Positions 47,701-63,872 of a DNA stretch of 64,000 nt are shown piece after piece (within the stretch, counting starts at the first letter, position 1; the number at the start of each line of letters is the position of its first letter). Origin of the DNA: Flavobacterium noncentrifugens (GTDB lineage: Bacteria; Bacteroidota; Bacteroidia; Flavobacteriales; Flavobacteriaceae); the NCBI RefSeq assembly GCF_900100375.1, contig NZ_FNEZ01000002.1, positions 806,001 through 870,000 on the forward strand. Direction: 5' to 3'. The notes under the pieces were generated by a model, which saw only the letters and a list, made by a program, of their open reading frames with translations, was not told where the DNA came from and ran no database searches. The position numbers and the translations under genes are program-made.

Positions 47701-47986
47701 TACGCCAAACATCAATATTTCAGACAGATATATCGAAGACGGATCTTACCTGCGCATCCAAAACGTGACTCTTGGGTTTTCGCTTCCGGCCGACCTGATC
47801 TCAAAACTAAAGATGTCAAGAGTAAGACTTTACGCCAGCGCACAGAATCTGTACACGTTCACGAAATATGATGGTTATGATCCTGAAATCGGGTCATTCA
47901 ACCAAGATCCGCTTTTGACAGGTGTAGACAACGGAAGATATCCAACACCAAGGACATATTCTGTAGGCGTTAATGTAGAATTTTAA
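44765..47986 (+). CDS. SusC/RagA-family TonB-linked outer-membrane transporter
   Basis: 1073-residue barrel that imports mannan oligosaccharides with its SusD lid. Parts visible: signal peptide ending SAAQAQ, a carboxypeptidase-regulatory-like domain (GVVSDDKGLTLPGVSVTLKG), the SusC signature NEVVVIGYGTQKRNDV, a plug with IDGVPVSGD and SATAIYGSRGANGVIIITTK, then a 22-strand barrel ending in PTPRTYSVGVNVEF. It starts the operon SusC-SusD-SusE-like, followed by GH27 and GH5. Confidence 0.97.
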   Translation: MKKHLSYLSHWDFVFRRIPLLLLLLLAGSAAQAQSLVKGVVSDDKGLTLPGVSVTLKGSTKGVSTDFDGKFEINVPADASLTFSFVGFTSQTVSVNGKTTINIKLKQSSEDLNEVVVIGYGTQKRNDVNSAISSIKTKDLENLKQVSVDQMLQGKAAGVSVTNNSGQPGSAVSIRVRGTTSITGTNEPLYIIDGVPVSGDATGRSTSGRPVAGNDFSSNGGSGSNAVSPLSMINPNDIQSIDILKDASATAIYGSRGANGVIIITTKSGKSGNGKITYEGYTSTQTIYKELDVLNLQQYARYQNQLAVLYNPSALPSDVIRPEFAHPELLGNGTNWQKEIYRTAMAKSHQISFSGAKENTSYYLSAGFLDQEGIIIGSGYKRYTTRLNLDTKVKPWLRVGANLNAGISNETVTINQSYQGLISNTLLQAPDMAIRNPDGSFAAPPAGQNVNYFNPVAEALTKENKLVRKNFLGNIYAEANLFKGLKYRIEVSANTEFNENTEFAPSFDRGSQYNLTSDLAERRQNWYSTNIKNLLTYDFGINNHKFTILAGQEALDSHWEGMLATAEGLQTNDIYTLNLADPANRKVDYYKGSASIASLFGRIIYDYAGRYGISGSIRQDVSSKFDPAAEGQKQKGDFAAFTVSWKLSAESFMESTRKYIDNIKFRFGYGETGNQQIPNNRYSAILRQQNSGLGVGFLPSNFPNPDLTWESLEQKNLGMDFTLFNSRLAVNIDVYNKKSKGFLYQVPLAVYLTGDLPNEGGQYGGIAAPYSNLGEMQNEGYDLTFNYSTKGTGKFSWNSTLVVSHYKNELLSIQDGLPLTSAVNTNGYQPVDVTNTRVGNPIGMFYGYVTQGIFNNLAELNAAPLQFGQTIGTAPGQTYLGDIRYKDVNGDNVIDANDKTFIGNPHPDFTYGFTNNFKYGNFDLSVFLQGSQGNDVLNLTKRNGTSNSQLYTNQLVSAADFWTPTNTNAANPRPVNSTSTPNINISDRYIEDGSYLRIQNVTLGFSLPADLISKLKMSRVRLYASAQNLYTFTKYDGYDPEIGSFNQDPLLTGVDNGRYPTPRTYSVGVNVEF

Positions 47987-47998
47987 TTAAAAATCGAA

Positions 47999-49576
47999 AT
48001 GAAAACGAAAAAAATAAACGGTTATAAATTTTTTACTGCAATGTTGGCTCTGTTTGCAATGGCTTCCTGTACGGAAGATTTCACGAACAGGCCACCTGAA
48101 GATGCCATCAGCCTTGATGCTTATTACAGCACAAACGAGCAGGTCGAATCTGCAACAAACGGACTTTACAGCAGAACCTGGTTTCAGCTTGAAAACAAAT
48201 TTTTCTGGGCAGTTACAGAAGTAGGCTCGGGAAATATGTATACCAATTCGTCGGATGTGAATGCCTTGCGTACCTTTTCGCTTACAGGTACCGATCCCGA
48301 ATTAAAAAGAGGATGGAGCTCGCTCTGGGCAAATGTGGCTCAGGCCAATTCGATCATTAATTTTCTTGCCGCCCGTGTTGGCCCGGACGTTTCCGACAGC
48401 GTATTGCAAAATACCATCGGCGAGGCTTATTTCATGAGAGCGACGGCTTATTTTTACTTGGTAAGAATGTGGGGGCCGGTTCCAATTATTGAAAACAACC
48501 TGAACTATCAGTCAACACCAAAAATTCCGGTGAACAGAACTGAAGACATTTATACTCTGATCGAAAGGGATTACCTGATGGCAGCAGAAAAGCTGAATGC
48601 CAAGACCAGAGGATCAAATTATGCCGAAAACGGAAGGGTTTCTAAAGGATCGGCGAAAGCCATGCTTGCCAAAGCTTATTTGTACATGAAAGATTATGCT
48701 AAAGCTAAAGCCACGGCAGAAGAAGTGATCAATAGCGGGGAATTCAAATTATTGGGTGGTAGCATGTTGCCGGGTAAAAACTTTGGTGACTTATTTAAAT
48801 ATGCTGGAAATAACAACGAAGAATCCATATTTGCGCTGCAATGGAAAGGTGACGGAAATTATGGCTCGGCAAACAACTGCAATACGCAATTCGGCATCCA
48901 GACCAGCGCCGTATCTACTTCAAATGTTTCTTACGGTGGCGTATTTGCCCCATCTCAGGATGTATTGACTGCTTTTACTGCGGGTGACCTTAGAAGAAAA
49001 GAAACGATCATGTTACCGGGAGATTCCTATCCGGATGTAAAAGTGGTGCAGGGCGGATTTTTAACAGTTCCCTCGGCAGATGAAATTGGCGGGCAAAATG
49101 CAGGCGCTGCAATCAAAAAGTATTGCCTCGGAATCAAAGGGGACGCGGCAGGCCCGGCAGACCAGTGGGGAATGATGGACAACAATACCTACATCATGCG
49201 ATATGCAGAATTGCTTTTGATTCACGCCGAAGCCACTTTAGGCAATGCCGGAAGTACTTCCGATGCAGGTGCACTTGCTTCTTTCAATGCGGTTAGGGCC
49301 AGGGCAGGATTGTCAAATCTGGCATCGATCACATTTGATGATATCTTCAAAGAAAGAAGGAAAGAATTGTGTTTCGAAGGGGATTATTGGTTTGATCTTG
49401 GGCGCATTTCAAGAAGCCAGGCAACGACAATCATGGCGGCTCAAAACCGTGGAAACCGTATTACAGCCGAATATTTTACACCTGAGCCAGGCGATTTCCT
49501 GATTCCGTTCCCGGAAGACGATCTTGCTAAAAATCCGCTGTTGACCCAGCCGCCTGTACCTTATAACTTCAATTAA
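47999..49576 (+). CDS. SusD/RagB-family surface glycan-binding lipoprotein
   Basis: 525-residue lipoprotein (lipobox FAMASC) that caps the SusC barrel and binds the glycan. The TPR-rich SusD fold shows in the N-terminal AISLDAYYSTNEQVESATNG, AYFMRATAYFYLVRMWG, KGSAKAMLAKAYLYMKDYAK and the C-terminal FKERRKELCFEGDYWFDLGR. It is 12 bases downstream of susC and translated with it. Confidence 0.97.
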   Translation: MKTKKINGYKFFTAMLALFAMASCTEDFTNRPPEDAISLDAYYSTNEQVESATNGLYSRTWFQLENKFFWAVTEVGSGNMYTNSSDVNALRTFSLTGTDPELKRGWSSLWANVAQANSIINFLAARVGPDVSDSVLQNTIGEAYFMRATAYFYLVRMWGPVPIIENNLNYQSTPKIPVNRTEDIYTLIERDYLMAAEKLNAKTRGSNYAENGRVSKGSAKAMLAKAYLYMKDYAKAKATAEEVINSGEFKLLGGSMLPGKNFGDLFKYAGNNNEESIFALQWKGDGNYGSANNCNTQFGIQTSAVSTSNVSYGGVFAPSQDVLTAFTAGDLRRKETIMLPGDSYPDVKVVQGGFLTVPSADEIGGQNAGAAIKKYCLGIKGDAAGPADQWGMMDNNTYIMRYAELLLIHAEATLGNAGSTSDAGALASFNAVRARAGLSNLASITFDDIFKERRKELCFEGDYWFDLGRISRSQATTIMAAQNRGNRITAEYFTPEPGDFLIPFPEDDLAKNPLLTQPPVPYNFN

Positions 49577-49588
49577 AAAAACAGTATT

Positions 49589-50647
49589 ATGAAAAGTCTA
49601 AAAATTTCAGGCATTGGCATTCTTTTATTGCTATTGTCGTTCTTATCCTTAAACTCGTGTAGTGACGACGACAGCAAAACAAATGTTGGTGCGCCTCCAG
49701 TAATCTCGAGTGTCAGCGCATCTACAGTGGATGATAATGGAAATCCGACTGCGCTGACGCCGGTTAATTTAGGGTATGCCAATAATTATTACATCATCTC
49801 CGGATCAGGATTTACGTCTGTCCAAAAAGTATATTTTAACGAAACCGATACTTATTTTAATCCGGCATTTGTGACTGATAATACGATTATTGTCAATATC
49901 GACATTGATACGCCTTATGCCGATGCGTCGGATGAGTTGAAGGTCGTTACCGCAAATGGAACTGCAGTATATCATTTTGTGATTGCACCGCCAGCACCGC
50001 TTGTAAATAGTTTTAATCCGATCAATGCCGCTGCAGGTGAAACGGTTACGGTTTATGGTGATTTTTTCCTTGATCCTGTTGTTACTGTTGGGACAACGGC
50101 CGCCACGGTCATTTCTTCTACAATGACAGAAATCCAGTTTGTAATGCCTGCCGATTCCAATTACGACTATGTTGAAGTGACAACAATTTCAGGCTCAAAT
50201 ACGGCACCTCAAGCCATAGGCACTGCAATTTACGATGACGCACGTGCCAGCTTTGTTGAAAATTGGCTGGGTCCATGGGACGGTTCCGGCTTTACCGTTA
50301 ATACGAGCATTAAAATACAGGGAGAAAGTTCAATCGAAGCCAATTATACCGCATATACCGGATTTAAAATCCCAATGTTTGCATCACCTGTTTCAACTGC
50401 CCCATATTCTGGGATCAGGATTTCGTTAAAAAGCACCAAACCAGCTGGCAAAGTAAAAATTTACGTGAACGGAAATAATGGTGCAGGTAAAGAAATTGAA
50501 TTCACAAGCAACTGGACTTCAGTCGTTATTCCGTTTGCCGACCTAGGCGGCGCGCCAGCTTCCCTCAATGAAATTGTGATTCAGGAATTTGCAAATGCTG
50601 GAGGCGACAAATTATTCTTCGACGATATTGGTTTTATACTAAGATAA
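49589..50647 (+). CDS. SusE-like surface glycan-binding protein with IPT/TIG domains
   Basis: 352-residue lipoprotein (lipobox FLSLNSC near residue 24) that probably presents mannan chains to the SusCD complex. Two IPT/TIG Ig-like domains (about residues 35-130 and 131-215) precede a C-terminal beta-sandwich (FVENWLGPWDGSGF, ASPVSTAPYSGIRISLKS, KLFFDDIGFI) of CBM-like type. It is 12 bases after susD and has no enzymatic motif. Confidence 0.85.
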   Translation: MKSLKISGIGILLLLLSFLSLNSCSDDDSKTNVGAPPVISSVSASTVDDNGNPTALTPVNLGYANNYYIISGSGFTSVQKVYFNETDTYFNPAFVTDNTIIVNIDIDTPYADASDELKVVTANGTAVYHFVIAPPAPLVNSFNPINAAAGETVTVYGDFFLDPVVTVGTTAATVISSTMTEIQFVMPADSNYDYVEVTTISGSNTAPQAIGTAIYDDARASFVENWLGPWDGSGFTVNTSIKIQGESSIEANYTAYTGFKIPMFASPVSTAPYSGIRISLKSTKPAGKVKIYVNGNNGAGKEIEFTSNWTSVVIPFADLGGAPASLNEIVIQEFANAGGDKLFFDDIGFILR

Positions 50648-50736
50648 TATTTTACGTTTTGTTTGAGTTAGTTGAACATATTCCCTGGTAGCTTTATCAG
50701 GGAATTGTTTTTTTAATAATTTTTTAATTTACACAG

Positions 50737-51972
50737 ATGAAAATAATAAGGACAACCCTGATTGCTTTAACATCGACAATTGCCGTTTTTAGCCAGGGAA
50801 ATACGCATAGCCAGCCTGTTGGAAAGTTCGAAGGGCTTGCAATGACTCCGCCAATGGGGTGGAATTCCTGGAATACTTTTGAAACCAATATTGATGAAAA
50901 GCTCGTAAAAGAAACTGCCGACATCATGGTCTCTTCAGGAATGGCTGCCGCAGGATACAATTACATCGTACTCGATGATGGCTGGATGACAAGGGAGCGT
51001 GATGCCAATGGAAACCTCGTTCCGGATCCTAAGAAATTTCCCGGCGGAATGAAATCGCTTGTCGATTATGTACATTCTAAAGGTTTAAAATTCGGGCTTT
51101 ACAATTGTGCAGGCACAAAAACCTGCGGCGGATATCCGGGAACGCGCGGTTATGAATATCAGGATGCGCGATTTTATGCCGGATTAAACATTGATTTCCT
51201 GAAATACGACTGGTGCAATACCGAAGGAATCAATTCTAAAGAAGCTTACGCAACGATGAGCAATGCACTTAAAACAGCAGGAAAACCAATTGTTTTCAGC
51301 CTTTGCGAATGGGGCGATACCAAACCGTGGGAATGGGGCAAACCCATCGGAAACCTCTGGCGTATTTCTGGAGATATTTCTCCTTGCTTTGATTGTGAAG
51401 ACAAGCATGAAGGCAATTGGTCATCGTGGGGATTCATGAAAATTGCAGAAATGCGCAAAGACATTCGGAAGTTTTCCGGACCCGACCATTGGAACGATTT
51501 TGACATGCTTGAAGTAGGTGACGGCATGACAGATACCGAAGACAAAACCCATTTTTCACTTTGGAGCATGCTTTCATCGCCTTTGATAGCGGGCAATGAT
51601 TTGAGGAAAATGTCTCCTGAAACCAAACAAATACTGACAAACAAGGAATTGATTGCAATCAATCAGGACAAACTTGGCATTCAGGCATTTCAATATTCGC
51701 CCGAAAAAAACCTTGATGTCTGGGTAAAACCTTTGTCTGATGGAAATTGGGCAATTGCCTTTATCAACAGAAGTGAAAGTTCTAAAAATATCGTTTTTGA
51801 CTGGAAGAAAAATAATTTATCAGATGCCGATTTTGGCTTTACCGCCGATTTTAACCAAAAAACGTATCAAATAAAAGACCTCTGGAAAAATAAAAATAAC
51901 GGTACGACCGCTAAACCTTTCAAAGAAAACCTGGCCGCACACGATGTTATCGTACTAAGACTTACAAAATAA
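50737..51972 (+). CDS. GH27 alpha-galactosidase
   Basis: 411-residue exported enzyme that removes alpha-1,6-galactose side chains from galactomannan. Signal peptide then the GH27 start TPPMGWNSWNTF, YIVLDDGWMTRERD, the nucleophile Asp in DFLKYDWCNT, and the acid/base Asp region WNDFDMLEVG. A C-terminal beta domain ends the protein. The stop TAA shares bases with the ATG of the next gene (TAATG), so the two are coupled. Its presence shows the substrate of the locus is probably galactosylated. Confidence 0.96.
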   Translation: MKIIRTTLIALTSTIAVFSQGNTHSQPVGKFEGLAMTPPMGWNSWNTFETNIDEKLVKETADIMVSSGMAAAGYNYIVLDDGWMTRERDANGNLVPDPKKFPGGMKSLVDYVHSKGLKFGLYNCAGTKTCGGYPGTRGYEYQDARFYAGLNIDFLKYDWCNTEGINSKEAYATMSNALKTAGKPIVFSLCEWGDTKPWEWGKPIGNLWRISGDISPCFDCEDKHEGNWSSWGFMKIAEMRKDIRKFSGPDHWNDFDMLEVGDGMTDTEDKTHFSLWSMLSSPLIAGNDLRKMSPETKQILTNKELIAINQDKLGIQAFQYSPEKNLDVWVKPLSDGNWAIAFINRSESSKNIVFDWKKNNLSDADFGFTADFNQKTYQIKDLWKNKNNGTTAKPFKENLAAHDVIVLRLTK

Positions 51973-52937
51973 TGAAGCAATACAAATCCATTTTTAGTGC
52001 TTTGCTGTTCTTTTTTACAATGGCAAATCAGGCGCAATTTGTAAAACAACACGGGCAACTTCATGTCAACGGCACGCAACTTACAGATCAGAACAACCAA
52101 CCAGTTTCCCTTCGCGGAATGAGTTTTGGGTGGCACAGTTTCTGGCCCAGGTTTTACAATCAAAAAGCAGTAGGCTGGCTCAAAGATGATTTTCATTGCA
52201 ATGTCGTCCGTGCTGCTATGGGAATAGAAGTTGGCGACCGCAATTACCTTCAGGATCCTGAATTCGCAAAACAAAAAATTTGTGCCGTTGTCGACGGTGC
52301 CATAAAAGAAGGCATTTACGTCATAATTGATTGGCACAGCCATAATATCAATCTTAAGGAAGCCAAAGTTTTCTTTGCAGAAATGTCTAAAAAATACGGC
52401 AAGCATCCCAATGTGATTTATGAGATTTTTAATGAGCCTGATGAGGAAAGTTGGCCAGAAATAAAAGCCTATTCAGAAGAGGTTATTGCTGAGATTAGGC
52501 AAAATGATCCTGATAACATTATTCTTGTTGGCTGTCCGCACTGGGATCAGGACATTCATTTGCCTGCAGCAGATCCAATAAAAGGATTTTCAAATTTAAT
52601 GTATACGATGCATTTTTATGCAGCGACCCATGAAAAATGGCTCAGGGATCGCACCGACGAAGCGATTAAAAGCGGCCTTCCTGTGTTTATTTCAGAATCG
52701 GCCGGAATGGAAGCTACAGGTGACGGTGCCTTAAATTATAAGGCCTGGCAAGAATATATCAACTGGATGGAAGCAAAGCAACTCAGCTGGATCGTATGGT
52801 CGGTATCTGATAAAGACGAAAGCTGCTCTATTTTGAAAAAAACTGCAAAGTCAGAAGGGCTTTGGAAAGATTCAGATCTTAAAGAATCTGGGCTAAAAAC
52901 GAGAGAATATATCAGAAAATACAACTCTGGAATGTGA
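51972..52937 (+). CDS. GH5 endoglucanase/mannanase
   Basis: 321-residue exported GH5 enzyme, closest in look to the GH5_2-type cellulases. Signal peptide ends near NQAQ. Motifs are LHVNGTQLTDQNNQPVSLRG, GMSFGWHSFWPRFYN, IYVIIDWHSHN, the acid/base Glu in VIYEIFNEPDEES, and the nucleophile Glu in PVFISESAGM (usually SEWG; the Trp is replaced). In this locus it could cut glucomannan. It is the last gene of the operon and the last chromosomal gene before the tRNA-linked island. Confidence 0.92.
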   Translation: MKQYKSIFSALLFFFTMANQAQFVKQHGQLHVNGTQLTDQNNQPVSLRGMSFGWHSFWPRFYNQKAVGWLKDDFHCNVVRAAMGIEVGDRNYLQDPEFAKQKICAVVDGAIKEGIYVIIDWHSHNINLKEAKVFFAEMSKKYGKHPNVIYEIFNEPDEESWPEIKAYSEEVIAEIRQNDPDNIILVGCPHWDQDIHLPAADPIKGFSNLMYTMHFYAATHEKWLRDRTDEAIKSGLPVFISESAGMEATGDGALNYKAWQEYINWMEAKQLSWIVWSVSDKDESCSILKKTAKSEGLWKDSDLKESGLKTREYIRKYNSGM

Positions 52938-52974: not shown

Positions 52975-53004
52975 AAAAGTTCCAAATCTGATTTAGAACT
53001 TTTT
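52975..53004 (+). terminator. Terminator of the SusCD-GH27-GH5 operon
   Basis: AAAAAGTTC-caaatctgattta-GAACTTTTT: a 9-bp stem with A and T flanks, 38 bases after the GH5 stop. Confidence 0.75.
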
Positions 53005-53009
53005 ATTTC

Positions 53010-53026
53010 GTGACTTCGACTGGATT
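53010..53026. repeat. Degenerate extra att copy (tRNA-Arg 3' end)
   Basis: GTGACTTCGACTGGATT equals the 17-bp island att repeat with one change (C to T at position 6). It lies 97 bases left of the better copy and points to an older integration at the same tRNA. Confidence 0.75.
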
Positions 53027-53076
53027 TTGTTCCAAGATCCAAAATAGCTCCGCTTTGAAAATCACTAAAATAAAAA

Positions 53077-53122: not shown

Positions 53123-53139
53123 GTGACCTCGACTGGATT
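53123..53139. repeat. attL: 17-bp copy of tRNA-Arg 3' end
   Basis: GTGACCTCGACTGGATT is identical to 63798-63814, which contains the acceptor and T-stem end of the intact tRNA-Arg. Together they frame the island. Confidence 0.88.
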
Positions 53140-53854: not shown

Positions 53855-56413
53855 ATGCACCATAACGATGTTGATTATTGGAGATACCTTACTTCTCTTC
53901 ATACCGGTCATATTGACTTGCCTTCCCCTCGCGTCTGCCGACTTTTGGAAAGAATATTCCAGAGATGGAAAGAAAAACCACTTTGGCTTGACGAAAATGA
54001 TGTTGGCCACTTGTTTTTGGATCGCAATGACCTATCAGAAGAAGAACGAGATGAACTAGCTAAACTTCCCGTTTCCATTCGCAAATCACTTGCGGTTAAA
54101 AGAATGTTTGAAGTTATAACAAACCCATTTATCGCGGAAAAAGCTGGTTCTTTTAGTGTCGATCCAGATGAGTTGGTACTTGGTACAATGCCTCCTTTTT
54201 CGGTTGGTCAAGGAAAAGAATTTGTATTGTATTTAACTGAAGACGAAAGGTTAACAGCGATGCTTAGTTACTTGAGCGAACGTTCGCCAATGGGACACAT
54301 TGTGCCAAACCATGAACGAGCTGTGACTGTTGGTTTTAATGCCATTATAAACGATTGTGAAAAACTCGCTGCAAAAAATCCTGATCAAGAAAATTTTTAC
54401 ACTTCGGTAAAACTCTCACTCGAAGCCGTTATCTTTTTCGCAAGTCAGTATGCTGAAGAGGCTAAGCGAGTTGCTGCAACGCTCCCTGATGGTGACGCTC
54501 GCATAAGTTCATTGATTGCTGCCGCTCAACGACTGATTAAAATACCTGCACAAAAACCGGATACTTTTATCGAAGCAGTTCAGTGTATCTATATTTTGCA
54601 CTGCGCATTCCATTGGACGGCCGAAATTGTTCCTATTGGTCGTCTGGACCAAATTTTATTTCCATTTTACGAAAGGGACGTCCGGAATGGAATTTTAACG
54701 CCTACAGCTGCGCAAGAGATTTTAGATTGTTTCTGGATAAAGCTTGGGGAGCGGGCTATGCTAAACAGACGTCATATTGAAAACCGTTGTACGGCAACTG
54801 ATGGCGTGTTAACGGGCTTCTTTGGTTCATCAAATTATGATCAGGGTGGTTTAGCAAATCAATGGATGCAACAAATAACAATTGGAGGAGTACTTCCTAA
54901 TGATGAACAATATGTTACAGATGCCAGTAATGCGGTTACCCGCATGTGTATACAAAGCTCAAGAAGATTACCACTCAATAGCCCAACGCTTGACCTACGC
55001 GTGCATACTGATACTCCACAGGATATACTGGAATTAGCAGCACAAACTTTATTAAGCGGCGGTGCTCATCCAGTTCTTTTAAATGATGATAAGATTATCA
55101 AAGGATTAATTGAAGGCGGGGCTGGAAAAATTTCTTTATCTGCCGCCCGCAATTATGCCTGCGATGGCTGTTATGAAACTATGATTGCCGGAGAATCCGA
55201 GTTCAGCTTTGGTTTTGTTTCCGCTCCCGAACTCATTGAAAAAGCATTGAACCGCGGTGCTGGTCTTGCGGCCGCGGGACCAATACACCTAATCGGGACC
55301 AAAGACAGCTGGCGTACGGAAGCTGCTCCAGACATTACATCTTGGGATAAGTTTTTAAAATTGATAAAAGAACACATGGTCTTGAGTTGCCACAGGTATA
55401 TCAACACTTTAATGCTTAACTATGGCAATAAAGTTAATGTTTGTCCTTCGCCACTTTTATCAGCGTTTATAGGCGGATGCATTGAAAGCGGCAGGGATTT
55501 AACAGACGGAGGAGCCAGATACCATGTTTTCTCGCCTTTACTTACTGGTATTAGTACAGCAGCAGATTCCCTTTATGCAATAAAAAAACTTGTTTTCGAA
55601 GAAAAAGAACTTAGCCTAACCGAGCTATTGACCGCGCTTTCTACAAATTGGGGAGCAGGGTTGATACATTCGAACGAAAATGTTTTGCCTGCGTTGGGTA
55701 TCGCTGTATCACCAAAACGTATTGATGAAATAAGAACGCTATGTAATGATCAAGCAAAATTCGGCTTCGGAAATAAGGAAGTTGACGTATTGGCCTGGGA
55801 TCTTATCAATACTTTTTGTGATTGCGTGCATAATACATTTTCTTCATCTGTTCATCAGCAAGCTTATAAAGCACTTCAAAATAGATATAATAACAGCGTA
55901 AACACTTTTGATATTTCACTCATTCCCGGCGTCGGAACATTCGAGCAATATATGTTCAGCGGGTCTTTCTTGGGCGCCTCTGCTGATGGTCGTCGCTCTG
56001 GAGACGCAATAGCATCTGATCTTTCCCCGGCGCCTGTTCATCGCGATATTGCAGCAATACCAGCTAATGGTGTGAGTCGACATGCTCGCGTTGGCACGCT
56101 TGAGAAAAGTTTTGAAAGTTATGTTGATTCTTCCATGAACAGATTAGGCGATGGAGCCCCTGCTGATTATAATTTGCCGGAAGATTACCCGGTAGATCAG
56201 TTAGTCGCGCGACTTAGGGACTTTGCTAACGGTAATGGGGGTTCTATATCCACCTATACGGTAGCTGATCCAGCTACGTTTGCCAATGCCCAAAAAGACC
56301 CAGATAGTTACAATCTCTTACGTGTGCGAATGGGCGGTTGGACGGAGTTCTTTATATGTCTTTTTCCAGAGCACCAAGAACAGCACAGGCGCCGTCCACT
56401 ATTCATCTCTTAA
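53855..56413 (+). CDS. Glycyl radical enzyme homologue (pyruvate formate-lyase family)
   Basis: 852-residue protein with the full glycyl-radical-enzyme layout and length. The substrate-barrel segment GGAHPVLLNDDKII precedes the active-site loop NYACDGCYETMIAG: Cys439 aligns with the thiyl Cys, Glu441 is kept, but the usual Pro of GCxEP is Thr442. The C-terminal radical loop reads LRVRMGGWTEFF, giving Gly828 as the radical glycine with Trp in place of Tyr, followed by an unusual His/Arg-rich end. Family members do radical C-C, C-O or C-N cleavage without oxygen and need a radical-SAM activase; none is encoded nearby. It is the first gene of the island operon, 6 bases before the peroxidase gene. 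The reaction cannot be assigned. Confidence 0.85.
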   Translation: MHHNDVDYWRYLTSLHTGHIDLPSPRVCRLLERIFQRWKEKPLWLDENDVGHLFLDRNDLSEEERDELAKLPVSIRKSLAVKRMFEVITNPFIAEKAGSFSVDPDELVLGTMPPFSVGQGKEFVLYLTEDERLTAMLSYLSERSPMGHIVPNHERAVTVGFNAIINDCEKLAAKNPDQENFYTSVKLSLEAVIFFASQYAEEAKRVAATLPDGDARISSLIAAAQRLIKIPAQKPDTFIEAVQCIYILHCAFHWTAEIVPIGRLDQILFPFYERDVRNGILTPTAAQEILDCFWIKLGERAMLNRRHIENRCTATDGVLTGFFGSSNYDQGGLANQWMQQITIGGVLPNDEQYVTDASNAVTRMCIQSSRRLPLNSPTLDLRVHTDTPQDILELAAQTLLSGGAHPVLLNDDKIIKGLIEGGAGKISLSAARNYACDGCYETMIAGESEFSFGFVSAPELIEKALNRGAGLAAAGPIHLIGTKDSWRTEAAPDITSWDKFLKLIKEHMVLSCHRYINTLMLNYGNKVNVCPSPLLSAFIGGCIESGRDLTDGGARYHVFSPLLTGISTAADSLYAIKKLVFEEKELSLTELLTALSTNWGAGLIHSNENVLPALGIAVSPKRIDEIRTLCNDQAKFGFGNKEVDVLAWDLINTFCDCVHNTFSSSVHQQAYKALQNRYNNSVNTFDISLIPGVGTFEQYMFSGSFLGASADGRRSGDAIASDLSPAPVHRDIAAIPANGVSRHARVGTLEKSFESYVDSSMNRLGDGAPADYNLPEDYPVDQLVARLRDFANGNGGSISTYTVADPATFANAQKDPDSYNLLRVRMGGWTEFFICLFPEHQEQHRRRPLFIS

Positions 56414-56419
56414 GCGATT

Positions 56420-57703
56420 ATGATAATAAACTTCCCACTTCCGCAGCCAATAGTAAATGGTCCGTTTCAAACTGGTATCACAGATCCACAATGGCCTGTT
56501 TCTCCGCCTGAAATTATTTTGGATGACGAAGCGGCAAAAGAACAGTATGCTTTCGAGCGGGCAGGCAGAATTGACCCGCAGAATTTTTTAACTGTCGTTA
56601 CAGCTAATGTAAATGTCGATACAAAGGAATCGCTTTGCAGCTTGTTTAAAAGCTTATCAAGTTTTGTCAAAGCACAAATAACCAGATTGCCAGATGATAA
56701 CCATATACCAGTATTAAAGGAAATACCAAAAACCTGGCGAGTTACTATAACTGTTGGTTTGGGTAGTTTACTTTTTATTACTGCTGATGGCGATGACAGA
56801 TTTGGCATCAGACATTTAAAACCAAGGTGGCTTCGAACCATGCCCAAAGTAACAGGCGATACATTTGATCCCAGTAAAACCGCGACTGACCTGATTTTTT
56901 TAATATCAAGCGACCACCCGTACGTGAATATCTCTATTGCGAGGGCTTTAAGTCAAGGAAATTGGGGGCAACAGGGAATTAAGGAAAAGCGTATAATTGT
57001 TAAAACGATTGATCAAGGATTTTCGAGACCTGACCGACGTGAATTTTTAAGGTTTGACGACGGGATAGACAATTTATCCAATAGCAAAGATGACGAATTG
57101 GATAAATTTGTATATGTAACACAAAGCGATGGAGAACCTGCCTGGGCAACGAATGGAGCATACCTTGCATGGCGTAAAATAAGAGAGAATTTGCCTTTTT
57201 GGGAAGCTTTCGCAAATCACGAACAGGAAAAAATGATTGGCAGGAAAAAGGATTCAGGCGTACCGCTTTCAAGAGAGGTATCAGGCCCCAGCGGAATGGC
57301 ACCCGTATATCCTAACCCAAAAGACAAAGCAGATGGCCCATTGACAGCACATATTAGGAAGGTGCAGCCAAGAAGGCCTGGTACAGATTTATTTGGTGTA
57401 GCAGATTTGGAACGCCGTTTTCTAAGGCGTGGCTATCCTTATTTTGATGGTCTGGAAACCGGTACTGATAAAATAGCGTGTGGCTTATTATTTCTTGCGT
57501 TTACGCGTAACCTCAGAAAACAATTTGAATGGCCGGTTGAAAGCTGGCAAACCAATCCTGATTTTCCTGAACCGGGAACTGGTATTGATATTATGTATGG
57601 TAGCGGCGTTTTATCAAATGTTTCCGGAGGATACTATTTCTGTCCGCCCTCATTCATGAATGATAAAGATGCGTTTCTTGGTATGGCCTTATTCAAACAT
57701 TAG
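56420..57703 (+). CDS. DyP-type heme peroxidase
   Basis: 427-residue dye-decolourising-type peroxidase, which uses heme and hydrogen peroxide to oxidise varied substrates. The proximal heme His is H311 in LTAHIRKVQPRRPG, the distal Arg is R337 in ERRFLRRGYPY, and the C-terminal GLLFLAFTRNLRKQFEWPVE and GGYYFCPPSF blocks are classic. The GxxDG motif is present as RFDDG (residues 211-215): Asp214 is kept, but the first Gly is Arg. No signal peptide or Tat motif, so it is cytoplasmic; no encapsulin gene is adjacent. It lies between the glycyl-radical homologue and the protease-PLD gene in one operon. Confidence 0.9.
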   Translation: MIINFPLPQPIVNGPFQTGITDPQWPVSPPEIILDDEAAKEQYAFERAGRIDPQNFLTVVTANVNVDTKESLCSLFKSLSSFVKAQITRLPDDNHIPVLKEIPKTWRVTITVGLGSLLFITADGDDRFGIRHLKPRWLRTMPKVTGDTFDPSKTATDLIFLISSDHPYVNISIARALSQGNWGQQGIKEKRIIVKTIDQGFSRPDRREFLRFDDGIDNLSNSKDDELDKFVYVTQSDGEPAWATNGAYLAWRKIRENLPFWEAFANHEQEKMIGRKKDSGVPLSREVSGPSGMAPVYPNPKDKADGPLTAHIRKVQPRRPGTDLFGVADLERRFLRRGYPYFDGLETGTDKIACGLLFLAFTRNLRKQFEWPVESWQTNPDFPEPGTGIDIMYGSGVLSNVSGGYYFCPPSFMNDKDAFLGMALFKH

Positions 57704-57734
57704 TTTAAAAATTCAACCTTAACACAATATAAAC

Positions 57735-60527
57735 ATGACTCAACCCCGAAACGGCAGCTTGTCAGCTTTGCTTGAGCATACAAAGCTCAATGATCCCGAA
57801 TTATACAATGAATATATTGCATCGCAGCGGACCGAAGAATCACCTACTTTAATTGAAAAAGCCTCAACCAAGATAATTTCTGAAAAAGTTCAGTTAAACA
57901 ATATCTCGCTACTCGCTGACAATAAAGTAGAAGAGGCGATTGCATTAGCTAGACTGAGACCCGTACTCGTAATCAGGGATAATAAAGTTGTGCCTGAATT
58001 CGAAGGGCCGGATGTCGAGGTTTGGAAAGCTCGTATCATGGATAAAGATGTGGTTCTAAATGGGGTAATTCCTTCTATTGGCAGAGTTGAGGTAAAGAAT
58101 AACATCCTATATAACTGGGTGGGTACAGGCTGGTTAATTGATACAAATATCATTGTAACAAATCGTCACGTCGCAAGTCTTTTCAGTCAAAATAATGAAG
58201 GATTTGCTTTTAAAATGGGTTATCCAAGCGGCTATCAATCAGCACAAATGGATTTTCTTGAAGAAGACCAACGTACAAATACGCTCGAATTTGCAATAGA
58301 TCGTGTTTTATGGATGGCTGAGAATGATAATAGCCAGCCAGATGTTGCTTTTTTAAAGGTTAAAAGTATGTTAAACGGACCAGTGTTGCCTAAACCAATT
58401 CCATTGGCAGATACTGTTGGGGAAGGTGAAGTAGTAGTAACCATCGGCTATCCGGCACGTGATCCTGATGTGCCAGATCAGGAACTCGTTTTAAGCGTAT
58501 TTAAAAATATTTATGATAAAAAAAGACTTGCACCGGGTATTATTCTAAAAGTTAAGGAACATGAATTGCAACACGACTGTTCTACGTTAGGTGGAAACTC
58601 TGGCTCAGCAGTAATTAGCTTGGCAACGGGAAAAGCTGTAGGCTTACATTTTGCCGGATTATATTTGCAAGCTAATTTTGCTGTGCCGGCTGCCATAATT
58701 AAAGGCCTTTTAAGTAAATTAAAATCGGGGACATTAACTAGGCTGGCCACCGCCGAATCGTTAGCTAACAACGACGAAGTGAACAAACCTGTAAATATGC
58801 TGCCAGTATCTAATAACACCTTTACTTTCGAGGCAACGATTCCAATAAAAATCACTGTTGATATAGGAGGTATTAGCATTAATTCGAATCCGACAGGCGT
58901 ATCGCCTCTTGCTATTAGTCAATCGGTTAGTAGAAATAATTCCGATAGCGCACTCGATGCAGCGCGGGAAGCATTAATTGGCAAACCAGAGGTATTAAAT
59001 GTCAGAAAAGGGTATCGTTTCAAAAATGGCTGGATCACCAACGAGCGGGTTATAGTAGTAGAGTTAACAGAAAAGAAAGGAATTGAGGATGTGCTTAAGT
59101 CCGGCCAAGCGCCCATTCCGGCACAATTTTATGGCGTTGGTGTAGATGTGCGCACTGCTCCCTTAATAGATCAATTACAAAATCTCGGAATCCAGATTGA
59201 GGCGCCACGAGTTGCTTCAGGAGCCGGAGTATATAGAGAACCACCATTTTTAAAGTTGAATCCGGTAAAAGAAGTGATGAGTGCTATTTTCCATGTTAGC
59301 CCAGATTCTGGCTTCCCTAATTTAAAGGCATTCCTAGAACGAGTGGAGCAAAAACTTACTGCGACTATGTACGAGTGGGAGGTAAACCATATCAGCAATG
59401 CCATTTTTAAAGCAATTAATGTTAATGGTCGGACGCTTACTATGGTAACTCAGAAAAAGGGAACCAAGGCGGCGGTAGCGGACATGCAATTAAGACTTGG
59501 AAATAAATTTAAACATGTTTGGGCATCTGTTGGTGCAGGTAAGATTGTACCCAGCGCTTATCATATAAAAGTAGCAACGCGAGATAGAAAAGAGTTTTGG
59601 CTTAGTAGCGGTAATTGGAAAGATTCTAATCAGGCCGATATAAATCCGGCTGTCGAACATTCAACATTAATGACACCTTTGCGTGAGCATAATAGAGAAT
59701 GGCATGCGATTATTAAAAATGAAAAGCTTGCTGGCTTATTTGAGGATTTCATAAATTGGGATTTTCAAGAGGCACAGCGGGTACCCGCTGATGAAGCGCC
59801 AGAAATGGCTGATGTTGAAATATTTATACCAGATGAAGACTTTTTACCGGGAATTGAAAGCCCTGCTGTAGCTAAATACTTTTCGCCGCTAGTAATTATA
59901 AACCGGGAGTTAGAAATTCAACCATTTCTTACTCCTGATTGGGATGACCGAGGTACGAGGATTTTTATGGATTTCGTCACTAAAATGATAGATAATGCAA
60001 AAGCTGTAATTTATGTTGAAAATCAATCGTTTAATTTATTAGATAGCAATAATGAAGCTTTTGAGCGTTTTTTTGCCGTACTAAAGAAGAAACAAGATCA
60101 GGGGGTTGAAGTAAAAATTATTTTTCGCGATGGACGGGAATTTGGTAGCGCAAATGCTATTTCGTTAGAACGCCTTTTAGAGCGAATTAAAGATTTTGGT
60201 ATCAACACAGATAATATTAAAGTTCAAACGGGTTGTCATACGAAAGCGATTATAGTTGATCCGGAAAATCCCGACAATTGCGCGGTAATGTTTGGCAGTC
60301 ATAATCTTACAAATGCGGGCGCATTGTTTAATCGCGATGCAAGTCTATTATTAAAGGATAAGGAGGTAGTAGCCTATTACACCCAAATTTTTAAATTTGA
60401 TTGGGAAGTGCTAAGTAAGCAATTTGTACGAGCTGAAGCCGCCGGTGTCATAGTTGCTGTGCCTGGAGAACCAGCGCCACTGGGATTTAAAAAAGTAAAA
60501 ATGAGTGATCTGTTAGACCCTTCTTAA
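57735..60527 (+). CDS. Trypsin-like serine protease fused to two-HKD phospholipase D/nuclease
   Basis: 930 residues. An N-terminal helical stretch (about 1-105) precedes a chymotrypsin-fold protease (about 110-335): GTGWLIDTNIIVTNRHVA with His145, QPDVAFLKV with Asp203 and STLGGNSGSAVIS with Ser289, so the triad looks complete. Residues 350-500 form an unrecognised linker. The C-terminal half is a PLD module with both HKD motifs: HIKVATRD (His610, Lys612, Asp617) and HTKAIIVD (His835, Lys837, Asp842), the latter followed by GSHNLTNAG. No signal peptide. Such a module can cut phosphodiesters in lipids or nucleic acid. A protease joined to an effector suggests self-activated release (inference). 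Confidence 0.88.
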   Translation: MTQPRNGSLSALLEHTKLNDPELYNEYIASQRTEESPTLIEKASTKIISEKVQLNNISLLADNKVEEAIALARLRPVLVIRDNKVVPEFEGPDVEVWKARIMDKDVVLNGVIPSIGRVEVKNNILYNWVGTGWLIDTNIIVTNRHVASLFSQNNEGFAFKMGYPSGYQSAQMDFLEEDQRTNTLEFAIDRVLWMAENDNSQPDVAFLKVKSMLNGPVLPKPIPLADTVGEGEVVVTIGYPARDPDVPDQELVLSVFKNIYDKKRLAPGIILKVKEHELQHDCSTLGGNSGSAVISLATGKAVGLHFAGLYLQANFAVPAAIIKGLLSKLKSGTLTRLATAESLANNDEVNKPVNMLPVSNNTFTFEATIPIKITVDIGGISINSNPTGVSPLAISQSVSRNNSDSALDAAREALIGKPEVLNVRKGYRFKNGWITNERVIVVELTEKKGIEDVLKSGQAPIPAQFYGVGVDVRTAPLIDQLQNLGIQIEAPRVASGAGVYREPPFLKLNPVKEVMSAIFHVSPDSGFPNLKAFLERVEQKLTATMYEWEVNHISNAIFKAINVNGRTLTMVTQKKGTKAAVADMQLRLGNKFKHVWASVGAGKIVPSAYHIKVATRDRKEFWLSSGNWKDSNQADINPAVEHSTLMTPLREHNREWHAIIKNEKLAGLFEDFINWDFQEAQRVPADEAPEMADVEIFIPDEDFLPGIESPAVAKYFSPLVIINRELEIQPFLTPDWDDRGTRIFMDFVTKMIDNAKAVIYVENQSFNLLDSNNEAFERFFAVLKKKQDQGVEVKIIFRDGREFGSANAISLERLLERIKDFGINTDNIKVQTGCHTKAIIVDPENPDNCAVMFGSHNLTNAGALFNRDASLLLKDKEVVAYYTQIFKFDWEVLSKQFVRAEAAGVIVAVPGEPAPLGFKKVKMSDLLDPS

Positions 60528-60537
60528 ATGCAAATAA

Positions 60538-61443
60538 ATGAACACCAATTTAACAAAAATTAGCGATGTTGTGCTTGATTTTGACGGAACCTGCACCCAA
60601 ATACAGGTTATTTATCAGGCCTACCTGAATGATTATTTTCAAAACCTAATAGATTTTCTTCAAGTTAATTACGCTGATGTCTCGATAACTAGCGATGAAT
60701 GGCAGGCGGCGCAACAACAGATACGCGAACATTCGCCATCAGCAGGCTGGATGCTGGCAGGTTGTCCATCCGCTCCGGCTGCAGCCGATCCTTATATACT
60801 TGCGGATGAATCCGCGAAATTTCTACTCCGAAAAAAGGAAATTTACGTTAGCATACCTGCTGATATTAATGCCAGGGCTTATGCTGCCAATCCTGCACCT
60901 TGGCGAGATGATGTTTACGAGACCATCAATAGGTTAATTGAAAATGGTATAGATATTCATTTTGTTTCGAATTCGGGCACTAAAATGATAAATGGCCGTT
61001 TACAGGAATTGTTCGAAGGCGTAGCAGGGGTTCCAAAAAAAATAAATGTGCAAAGTGATGCTGCGAAGTTTAAAATTTGTGAGTTAGCATGGGATAACGA
61101 AACGGTAGCAAAAGATAATCGAATTTTATTTAATTGTTTGGCACCGGTTGCTTGGGGCAATCACGAAAGCGTAACTAGGCCTATATATATAAGACGGGGC
61201 GCCTATTTTGAAGCGATATGTAAAGTTTTTAATAACAATCTTCAAAAATTAAAAAGCACCGTATTTTGCGGTGATATCTGGGAGATGGATCTTGCAATGC
61301 CACACGCGTTGGGTGCGAACGTACATCTTCTCGATCGGGCTCATCCGTTTGAAACATATAATTTCGAGCTAAAAGCAGTCAGTAACTATGGGAATTTTGG
61401 AAAATCCGGAAAAAATTTTTCGTCTTTATTAGAATGGCTTTGA
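60538..61443 (+). CDS. HAD-superfamily phosphatase-like protein
   Basis: 301-residue protein of the haloacid dehalogenase superfamily. Motif I is VVLDFDGTCT (nucleophile Asp14, acid/base Asp16), motif II is HFVSNSGT, motif IV is FCGDIWEMDLA (Asp246, Asp251), and Lys in YFEAICKVF could serve motif III. A long insertion between motif I and II (about 120 residues) is the cap. It probably dephosphorylates a small molecule. It starts 10 bases after the protease-PLD gene and ends the four-gene operon. Confidence 0.82.
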   Translation: MNTNLTKISDVVLDFDGTCTQIQVIYQAYLNDYFQNLIDFLQVNYADVSITSDEWQAAQQQIREHSPSAGWMLAGCPSAPAAADPYILADESAKFLLRKKEIYVSIPADINARAYAANPAPWRDDVYETINRLIENGIDIHFVSNSGTKMINGRLQELFEGVAGVPKKINVQSDAAKFKICELAWDNETVAKDNRILFNCLAPVAWGNHESVTRPIYIRRGAYFEAICKVFNNNLQKLKSTVFCGDIWEMDLAMPHALGANVHLLDRAHPFETYNFELKAVSNYGNFGKSGKNFSSLLEWL

Positions 61444-61446
61444 TGC

Positions 61447-61824
61447 CTAAATGTTTTGGCCAATTATTATTACATTTTTATCGTAATCATATAAGGAAAC
61501 GAGCCTTACGTGTTCGTAATTCTGAATTTCATCTTTAAACAATACACCTTTATTTTTAAGATTTGCCACTACATCATCAAGTGACAAATCTTTATTAATT
61601 TGAAGCTCAATATTTATTGAACCCGTCATACCGGGAGCAGTGTTTGTTACAGGGTTCGCTGGATGCAATCCAATAATAAACCCATTACCAACATCAATTT
61701 CCGCCCATTCATTATCGATCCGGTTAATTAGTTTCAGTTGGAGTGTGTTTACATAAAATCCGATCGCATCATCCATAGATGATACATAAATTGAAGCAAT
61801 GGCGCCGGAAAATAACTTACTCAT
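61447..61824 (-). CDS. VOC-family (glyoxalase/bleomycin-resistance-like) protein
   Basis: 125-residue protein with the vicinal-oxygen-chelate fold: ASIYVSSMDDAIGFYVNTL, GFIIGLHPANP, NIELQINKDLSLDDVVANL and a final YDYDKNVIIIGQN. It could bind or modify a small molecule; metal ligands are not obvious. It converges on the HAD gene with only 3 bases between stops and is outside the operon. It looks intact, unlike its right-hand neighbours. Confidence 0.82.
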   Translation of the reverse strand: MSKLFSGAIASIYVSSMDDAIGFYVNTLQLKLINRIDNEWAEIDVGNGFIIGLHPANPVTNTAPGMTGSINIELQINKDLSLDDVVANLKNKGVLFKDEIQNYEHVRLVSLYDYDKNVIIIGQNI

Positions 61825-62135
61825 TTAATTGATTTTAAGTCTTAAATTTAATGAATTTTCTTAAGAGAAATCCATATCAAATAAATATTATTTTAAGACA
61901 ATAATAATTGTTTGAATCTAACAAACAGAGTTGAGACAGCTTGTCAACGGTGTTATGCTAATTTATTTGAAGTTATTCACACACATCACAGTTCAACCGG
62001 CTGAATTCTTTAGAAGGATGCAACTATTTGATAAATACTTTTAATAAAGCAATCTTACGTGTTATGCTTAAAATAAATGTAAGAAAGGTAAGAAAATTTA
62101 TTTTCAATATGTTTTAAGGTCGCTAGCTTGGGCTA
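61825..62135. other. AT-rich intergenic region in island
   Basis: About 310 AT-rich bases between the VOC gene start and the decayed response-regulator gene. I see no gene, RNA or clear hairpin; it holds the upstream region of the VOC gene. Confidence 0.5.
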
Positions 62136-62733
62136 TTATTTAATTACACCGAGGTAAACAGCCTTATAAATTAACCCAGCAATGTTTTTAACTTGAAGTT
62201 TTAAAAAAATATTTTTCCGGTGTGTTTCAATGGTGTTTTTGCTGATATTTAATTTTATGGCAATCTCATCAGTTGTAGATTCCTTTGCAACAAGCCCGAT
62301 GATTTCTTTTTCCCTTTACTCAAAATCGATTTACTGAACTCAAGTAAACTGCGGTCTGTGGAAATGCCATTAAAATGTTTTTCGTTCCTCAACACAATTC
62401 CTATAATCGCATAAATCAGATGCTGTTTGTCTGTTTCTTTCAACAGGAAACCATCGATGTCCTTTATCGATTGCATGTTGTTGAACATGCTTACAACCAG
62501 AATTTTGACCTCTGGAAAATCTTTATTAAGAATTTTTATAAGTTCGAGACCGTTCATTTGAGGCATCGAAATGTCGGTAATAATAATGTCGGGTTAATTT
62601 ACCTTTAATTTTAAAATTGCGTCTTTTGCTGTGTTTTTCGCGAAGGCTATTTCAAAGCCGGGCTCGTTTGACAGCACGGAGATTAACCCGTCTAAAAACA
62701 TTTATGATCATCGACTATTCCGATTGTTATCAT
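62136..62733 (-). pseudogene. Decayed NarL/FixJ-type response regulator
   Basis: Reading the minus strand through frameshifts gives a recognisable receiver plus LuxR-type HTH protein: start MITIGIVDDHK, then IIITDISMPQMNGLELI (phospho-acceptor region), VKILVVSMFNNMQSI, a short deletion, FLLKETDKQHLIYAI, and a C-terminal HTH with STTDEIAIKLNISKNTIETH and the end VKNIAGLIYKAVYLG. At least two frame changes and an internal stop make it non-functional. A partner kinase remnant lies just upstream. Confidence 0.8.
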
Positions 62734-62740
62734 TGCTTAT

Positions 62741-62965
62741 GTGGGGATATCGACTATAATAAAACTTCCGTTACCAATAATTGATTCAATATTTAAAGTG
62801 CCATTCAATGACTTTAAACGGTCAGCAATATTCTTTAGACCAATTCCGGTAACATCATCAGATTTGAATCCAATACATCATCTTCCACGATTATATTTAG
62901 GAAATTAGCGTGGCGTGTTATCGTCAAACTGACTTAGCTATTTCTAAAATCCGACGGATATTTAC
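62741..62965 (-). pseudogene. Remnant of a histidine kinase C-terminus
   Basis: Minus-strand frames give LTITRHANFLNIIVEDD, a frame change, then TGIGLKNIADRLKSLNGTLN and IIGNGSFIIVDIPT-stop. This is the HATPase end of a NarX/DesK-type kinase. The rest of the gene is gone. It pairs with the decayed response regulator downstream. Confidence 0.7.
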
Positions 62966-63051
62966 GCAGGATAAGGTTTTGGTTTAACACGTATTTTGGG
63001 AATTTGGCTAATTCACCTTCGTTTGAACTTTTATGATTCAATTCGTTATAA

Positions 63052-63480
63052 TCAGGGAACGATAAAATCGTTTACCCCGCCGAATTTAAAGTTGGTTTCT
63101 GAATAAAGTTTTGAATTTTTAAAGCATTCAAGCGTAAGCGCCAAATCTTCAAAATGTTCTTTAAATTTTGCCTTTGGATTTTTCGTATACTCATCTCCGG
63201 TATACTTAGAAGATATAATAATAACATCGAGTAGTTGATGTTCGAGCCGACTTTTGATACTAATCAATGCGCGTCGATCCCATGCGTCGTTTTATTTCCC
63301 TTAGCACCTTTTGATTTGTGTTTTACTCCTTTTATACACGATATTGTTTCATTTGATATTGCCGAGTTATATCAGAGTAGATCTTTGAAGAAAAAATCGA
63401 CTACTTTTTCGCCTTTTTCTCCAACAGTTTTTGACAATTCTCCCCATACGTCTTCATTTTATTGGATGGCTAATATATAA
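63052..63480 (-). pseudogene. Decayed gene, possibly nuclease-like
   Basis: The minus strand can be read, through stops and frame changes, as WGELSKTVGEKGEKVVDFFF, CIKGVKHKSKGAKGNKTTHG, then GIDALISIKSRLEHQLLDVI and IISSKYTGDEYTKNPKAKF, ending in FGGVNDFIVP. The last 71 codons are open (63052-63267). A GID followed by strand-loop-SSK layout faintly recalls PD-(D/E)xK nucleases, but the second acidic residue is not evident. I report it as a broken gene of unknown family. Confidence 0.45.
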
Positions 63481-63675
63481 AGAATAGTTCGTGTGTATTC
63501 GACGAAATGCGTGTTTAAAAAGAAAGTTATTAACCAAATTAACAAATATTGAGAATCTGTACATCTTTTTAACAAATCAAACTCTTTTTTTCATGTTGGA
63601 ATTTGTCTAAACTGCTTTGTCAAAATGCATCGAATTGAACAGTTATTTGTAATTGAAATCTTTTCAAATTAAAAG
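63481..63675. other. Non-coding right end of island
   Basis: Very AT-rich stretch between the decayed gene and the right arm-type repeat. No gene or recognisable structure seen. Confidence 0.5.
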
Positions 63676-63797: not shown

Positions 63798-63814
63798 GTG
63801 ACCTCGACTGGATT
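63798..63814. repeat. attR: 17-bp repeat within tRNA-Arg 3' end
   Basis: GTGACCTCGACTGGATT, identical to 53123-53139; it covers the T-arm 3' side and acceptor end of the tRNA. Confidence 0.88.
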
Positions 63815-63872
63815 CAAACCAGTAACCTCTTGAGCCGTAATCAAGTGCGCTATTCAGTTGCGCCACGAGGCC
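63799..63872 (-). tRNA. tRNA-Arg (anticodon ACG)
   Basis: On the minus strand: acceptor stem GGCCTCG/CGAGGTC (one G-U pair), D-arm GCGC..GCGC, anticodon stem CTTGA/TCAAG with loop TTACGGC giving anticodon ACG (genomic 63836-63838), and T-stem ACTGG/CCAGT with loop TTTGAAT. The discriminator is A and CCA is not encoded. Its 3' end is the integration site of the island. Confidence 0.95.

Follow-up and report, generated by a model that had tools for sequence, protein, structure and literature searches.

A DyP-type peroxidase paired with a glycyl-radical enzyme homologue on a tRNA-flanked island of Flavobacterium noncentrifugens: a candidate conflict module

What might a glycyl-radical enzyme (GRE), a type of protein familiar from anaerobic life, be doing beside a DyP-type peroxidase in a bacterium that is probably aerobic? 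The question is raised by a rare cassette, flanked by repeats of a tRNA end, in Flavobacterium noncentrifugens (contig NZ_FNEZ01000002.1, positions 806,001 to 870,000 of the forward strand; this stretch of 64,000 nucleotides is hereafter the window). According to PMC11528403, the glycyl radical is stable under strictly anoxic conditions and is installed by a dedicated radical-SAM partner. An initial annotation of the window had described a module of four genes on one strand separated by 6, 31 and 10 bases, a layout with which the coordinates of the open reading frames (ORFs) agree:

53855..56413, + strand: GRE homologue of 852 residues, with Cys439, Glu441, Gly828 and Trp829
56420..57703, + strand: DyP-type peroxidase of 427 residues, with DyP N and C domains, a TIGR01413 match over cut-off, Asp214 and His311
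57735..60527, + strand: fusion of a trypsin-like protease with a phospholipase D (trypsin-PLD), 930 residues, recognised by Pfam, catalytic residues, structure model and fold matches
60538..61443, + strand: HAD-type phosphatase of 301 residues, with a weak PF00702 match; a relative (38% identical) stands beside the GRE and DyP in locus L002

We find that the fixed core of this module is the DyP together with the GRE, whereas the HAD enzyme, a VOC (glyoxalase-fold) protein and the protease/nuclease arm vary by locus. The DyP is likely to be the partner of the GRE, in the place of the usual radical-SAM activase, since the pair stands in every locus that could be read and a search of this genome turned up no gene for the usual activator. 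Furthermore, the linkage of a predicted protease-nuclease to the pair suggests a role in defence, and the cassette is probably a conflict module in which this protein would be the killing arm. The reading as a whole is put forward tentatively, and one or other of its parts may well fail.

Recurrence of the peroxidase and glycyl-radical enzyme pair

The comparison comprises 19 loci, of which 15 came from a scan made with the GRE only, two from plasmids and one from viral contigs, the window being the last. L006 ends inside its GRE and was dropped, leaving 18 loci readable past the GRE; it derives from the same metagenome-assembled genome as L016, and the two may be opposite ends of one locus. 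The GRE frames of L015 and L017 are interrupted (as is the DyP frame of L017), and their pieces were searched separately. A DyP is present in 18 of the 18 readable loci, lying adjacent to the GRE in 11 (the window, L002-L005, L007-L010, L016 and L017) and fused to its N-terminus in seven (L011-L015, L018 and L044), where the joint chains exceed 1200 residues. The condition under which the initial annotation would have put the arrangement down to chance, namely that homologues do not co-occur in other genomes, is thus contradicted by these loci.

Contig sharing in metagenome lists points the same way. We compared the 120 listed of 579 GRE (E<=1e-60), 223 DyP and 1742 trypsin-PLD matches, which came from about 8000 scored candidates per protein and represent 120, 119 and 119 distinct contig sizes. 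Judged by equal size, which is not proof, GRE and DyP have 23 contigs in common (22 without the window), and among the listed matches all three proteins share six (five without the window); shifted controls gave means of 0.3 to 0.4 and a maximum of 3. The two core proteins have also diverged together: over 29 pairs (21 of the 23 shared contigs, the window and seven loci) their distances correlate at 0.82, and none of 2000 permutations exceeded 0.40. This comparison excluded contig 8072, which has a partial DyP, as well as L005, L016, L017 and the fused forms.

Plasmids carry both the pair and more distant relatives of the GRE. Four of the 40 listed among 51 plasmid records with a GRE were opened (L017-L020): L017 and L018 have a DyP, and the more distant GREs of L019 and L020 do not, that of L020 being followed by an ordinary activase. 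On a Novosphingobium plasmid (L019:8001-9848) the GRE homologue is an orphan with the loop RIGGCSAYF, and neither a DyP nor an ORF of more than 180 residues with a CxxxCxxC motif was found within 17.8 kb of it.

As to the module itself, the proposal of a four-gene unit survives in part. Recurrence and gene fusion argue for a real module with the redox pair as its unit; the strict four-gene set is not conserved, and we rejected it as a system because trypsin-PLD occurs with HAD only in the window and L002 among the 19 loci. The latter locus, from Haloferula, holds trypsin-PLD, VOC, GRE, DyP and HAD in an order that differs from that of the window.

The core proteins, the search for an activase and the accessory genes

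The GRE has a PFL-like Pfam match (7e-106), the GRE fold, and both the thiyl-site Cys and the radical Gly, which align to those of choline lyase. Gly828, which the initial annotation had singled out, is fixed in all 120 listed relatives, Glu441 and Trp829 are likewise invariant among them, and Cys439 is kept in 119; Cys439, Glu441 and Gly828 remain constant down to about 31-37% identity. The Gly loop reads RMGGW, as against RVAGY in the solved GREs shown, so that Trp829 takes the place of a Tyr. Choline lyase is the best fold match, though 50 GRE rows score close to it.

The DyP is recognised by both of its Pfam domains (N domain 2e-9, C domain 3e-25), and Asp214 and His311, which we take to be the distal Asp and the heme-ligand His, are present in 120 of 120 listed stand-alone DyPs. 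A His of the heme-ligand type is also kept in all six fused DyPs that were aligned. Some DyPs bear a HAD-like C-terminal extension with the motif DIDET, seen in L007-L009 (L008:13821-14501) and in 17 of 120 listed DyP relatives; its Pfam match to acid phosphatases (6e-4) lies below cut-off.

A search for a radical-SAM activase in the window's genome, which is 99.99% complete and encodes a single PF02901 protein, returned nothing over cut-off. TIGR02494 had no match, the one sub-threshold match of TIGR02493 (22.5 bits, cut-off 231.75) was a QueE-like protein, and none of the genome's 16 radical-SAM proteins passed a cut-off for a GRE activase. Nine of these 16 are over the cut-off of MiaB, MtaB, RimO, LipA, HemW, HemN, BioB, PA0069 or RlmN, and others include one of UDG-linked type and the QueE-like one. 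In the genomes of relatives, no activase over cut-off was found in 13 of 14; the single one adjoins a classical PFL in L014, and within the loci that one, next to the PFL, is the sole activase relative, none standing beside a GRE of this clade. The host is probably aerobic: its genome contains two COX1 genes, and a class III ribonucleotide reductase was not found.

Trypsin-PLD matches Trypsin_2 (1e-14) and PLDc_2 (4e-19). Its structure model predicts a V8-like protease at about residues 71-332, a low-confidence linker (340-397) and a PLD part with two HKD motifs and the PLD fold (about 500-930). The catalytic residues named in the initial annotation are borne out: Ser289 belongs to a triad (His145/Asp203/Ser289) found in 120 of 120 listed relatives, and the HKD residues His610 and His835 are in place. 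We regard the protein as a predicted protease-nuclease of a kind predicted in bacterial conflict systems. The earlier suggestion of a protease-linked HKD effector of that kind thus gains from recurrence and homology, with the amendment that the arm varies between loci: NucA occurs in L005 and L009, and CHAT or deaminase genes in others.

The remaining partners also vary. The Pfam match of the window's HAD protein (PF00702, 7e-4) is below cut-off, and a single HAD family serving the pair was rejected, since hhalign gave a probability of 0.1% between its profile (three sequences) and the DyP C-terminal extension; different HADs therefore sit near the pair. VOC relatives occur in eight of the 19 loci, and in L005 a single ORF (16452-17912) appears to encode a VOC domain with a NucA endonuclease after it. 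In Flavobacterium sp. IB48, GRE-DyP-PLD is immediately followed by a Septu pair (PtuA and PtuB; L007:7962-10945). An MBL-fold gene lies in L008, with a relative in L012. Two candidate nucleases were set aside: an S1/P1 nuclease in L016, which is on the opposite strand and has a signal-peptide-like start, and an Exo_endo_phos match in L003, which is below cut-off.

Competing explanations for the pair

The proposal that the DyP charges the GRE draws on three observations that agree, none of which is proof: the DyP fusions, the Trp beside the radical Gly and the probably aerobic host. Several findings weigh against this proposal or against the defence role. In the aligned fused DyPs the distal Asp is replaced by Glu in five of six (Asp in one), and the RR at 318-319 is lost in all six, so that the fused forms are possibly not peroxidases of the ordinary kind. 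Model confidence is low for the GRE loop (residues 821-840, pLDDT 66-67). Five of the host's radical-SAM proteins, all of B12 type, are unassigned, and an activase-like match, over cut-off in one case and otherwise sub-threshold, occurs in 11 of the 14 relatives' genomes (completeness not stated). Trypsin-PLD, confined to two of the 19 loci, is not obligate, with only six of its 119 listed contigs common to listed GREs by equal size. Its PLD part matches the PLD3/PLD4 exonucleases at about 15% identity, phospholipases (bacterial phospholipase D among them) lie within 1 Z, and nuclease activity is consequently only predicted. Finally, L012, L014, L018 and L044 showed no recognisable nuclease, and just one of the 19 loci was shown to adjoin a known defence system.

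An alternative that keeps conventional chemistry is activation of the GRE in trans, at low oxygen, by an unrecognised host radical-SAM enzyme, with the DyP merely removing peroxide and so protecting the radical or the cell. According to PMC11528403, all described GREs rely on radical-SAM activases; the five unassigned host proteins offer candidates, and Chromobacterium does have a PFL activase. Yet in the searches above nothing passed an activase cut-off, either in the window's genome or in those of 13 of the 14 relatives, the only activase relative within the loci is that beside the PFL of L014, and a merely protective DyP leaves the seven DyP-GRE fusions unexplained. We consider this explanation unlikely. 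Alternatively, the GRE domain may be radical-free, acting as a scaffold for binding or sensing while the DyP carries out the oxidation. The failure to find an activase in the window's genome, the departure of RMGGW (in a loop of low model confidence) from the RVAGY of solved GREs and the probably aerobic host would all suit such a scaffold, which nevertheless would have no need of Cys439, Glu441 and Gly828, residues fixed down to about 31-37% identity; it, too, seems improbable to us.

The cassette might instead be catabolic, with PLD, PF04185 or HAD enzymes splitting phosphodiesters to free a head group or sugar, which the GRE, as a relative of choline lyase and diol dehydratase, would degrade. 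In favour of this are the choline lyase fold match (with 50 GRE rows close), the phosphoester chemistry of PLD, PF04185 and HAD enzymes and the fold matches of the PLD part to phospholipases. However, the annotated loci (in which not every neighbour is annotated) show no conspicuous gene for a transporter, dehydrogenase or microcompartment, and intracellular trypsin, CHAT, NucA and Septu neighbours fit poorly, making a catabolic role distinctly improbable. A chance gathering of the four genes on an island could be argued from the differing gene order and partners between loci, but it is scarcely credible given the DyP linkage in 18 of 18 loci, the fusions, the five parts in L002 and contig sharing far above control; for GRE and DyP themselves, linkage, fusions and contig sharing rule it out.

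Returning to the proposal that the DyP takes the place of the activase, the module could work as follows. Peroxide would bring the DyP to a high-valent heme state, which would oxidise the GRE via the invariant Trp829 and leave a radical on Gly828/Cys439. In this way, a burst of peroxide during infection or stress would set the GRE to cleaving a bond in a small, perhaps phosphorylated, substrate, while the HAD and VOC enzymes may trim or neutralise the substrate or product. The GRE product, or stress, would cause the trypsin-like domain to cleave either some target or the linker of its own chain. The PLD part thus freed, given its resemblance to PLD3/PLD4 exonucleases, might degrade nucleic acid. 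In its strongest form, the DyP itself would be the activase, a heme peroxidase fed by H2O2 (and fused to its client in some species) that installs the glycyl radical in a GRE lacking a radical-SAM partner and serves as the peroxide-set trigger of a protease-nuclease suicide or defence switch in aerobic cells; we advance this version as a doubtful one.

The island, its spread and its relation to known systems

The cassette lies on an island whose attachment to a tRNA gene, already recognised in the initial annotation, is confirmed by a 17-bp repeat, an exact duplicate of the tRNA-Arg 3' end lying 10,675 bases away:

53123..53139, + strand: left tRNA-end repeat, 17 bp, exact
61447..61824, - strand: VOC (glyoxalase-fold) protein of 125 residues, convergent with and three bases past the HAD gene; PF00903 match 5e-5, over cut-off
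63798..63814, + strand: right copy of the repeat, exact, inside the 3' end of tRNA-Arg
63798..63872, - strand: tRNA-Arg (ACG), the insertion site

The repeats enclose 10.7 kb comprising the four genes, the VOC gene (an addition to those first described), an ORF of 105 residues and a response-regulator region with a decayed look; in this last part (61820-63500) a response-regulator-like fragment and short ORFs resemble decayed two-component genes. No integrase was seen among the listed ORFs of the window, no integrase model having been run, and G+C content is alike in the cassette (41.2%) and the window (40.7%). The single promoter region originally proposed finds no support: the sequence is not enriched over shuffles in promoter-like sites (19 against a mean of 22.8) or in terminator-like ones (8 against 8.0). 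A third, weaker copy of the repeat (71%; 53004-53031) lies 113 bases before the left one and perhaps marks an older insertion. Just outside the left repeat (44765-52937) is an apparent polysaccharide-use cluster, its glycoside-hydrolase-like ORFs judged from translations only. In a check for an empty site, a same-genus genome (G141) had its tRNA-Arg-like match on a different contig from the flanking genes.

The GRE is sparsely distributed. It was not found in the five other same-genus genomes listed, and occurs in two of 299 same-family genomes (the window's own and Aureisphaera, L008), one of 395 in a class sample, and one of 394 and one of 397 around two other carriers, each count including the carrier used as its centre. 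Identity is higher to other groups (Acidobacteriota 69%, Lacipirellula 65%, Mesorhizobium 64%) than to nearer taxa (49-53% in Flavobacterium, Aureisphaera and Psychroserpens), which, together with the two GRE-DyP loci on plasmids, suggests that the cassette has moved between lineages. Carriage by phage was considered and rejected: four phage records reach at most 26.4% identity, and one putative viral IMG/VR contig (L044) has a DyP-GRE fusion.

Among known families, the GRE resembles the PFL2, choline lyase and diol dehydratase enzymes (PF02901, TIGR01774), yet falls far below every NCBIfam cut-off, and its clade differs from the PFL2 branch in the Trp after the radical Gly, the DyP beside or fused to it and the failure to find an activase. 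The aminoacyl radical enzymes are likewise homologous to GREs and altered in the radical loop; as PMC11528403 describes them, another residue stands in for the Gly and radical-SAM enzymes serve as their activases, whereas here the Gly is kept and no activase was found. EfeB/deferrochelatase-type peroxidases (TIGR01413) share both DyP domains, Asp214 and His311 with our DyP, which scores 143 bits, well below the EfeB equivalog cut-off of 428, is coupled to a GRE and has fused forms with altered distal residues. A close parallel to the arm is the trypsin-NucA conflict System 3 (Kaur et al. 2020, PMC7159879), where protease and nuclease also share one chain; the window's trypsin is about 40% identical to those proteins and has an intact triad, but PLD stands where NucA would be. 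The main text of that paper contains none of the terms peroxidase, phospholipase D and glyoxalase, and a DyP-GRE core is not mentioned there. A known anti-phage system was rejected, with no PADLOC match for GRE, DyP or HAD and only partial domain matches for trypsin-PLD. Literature searches, whose coverage mostly left out subscription titles, returned no paper that brings a GRE together with DyP, with defence or with the remaining parts, and none linking trypsin-like proteases, phospholipase D and defence; among the papers listed by broader searches, judged by titles and abstract openings, none describes such a pairing.

If the proposed reading is correct, the pair would represent a second route by which a protein radical can be made or used. 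Conflict systems of the protease-nuclease kind would gain a redox trigger, and glycyl-radical chemistry would extend into aerobic cells.
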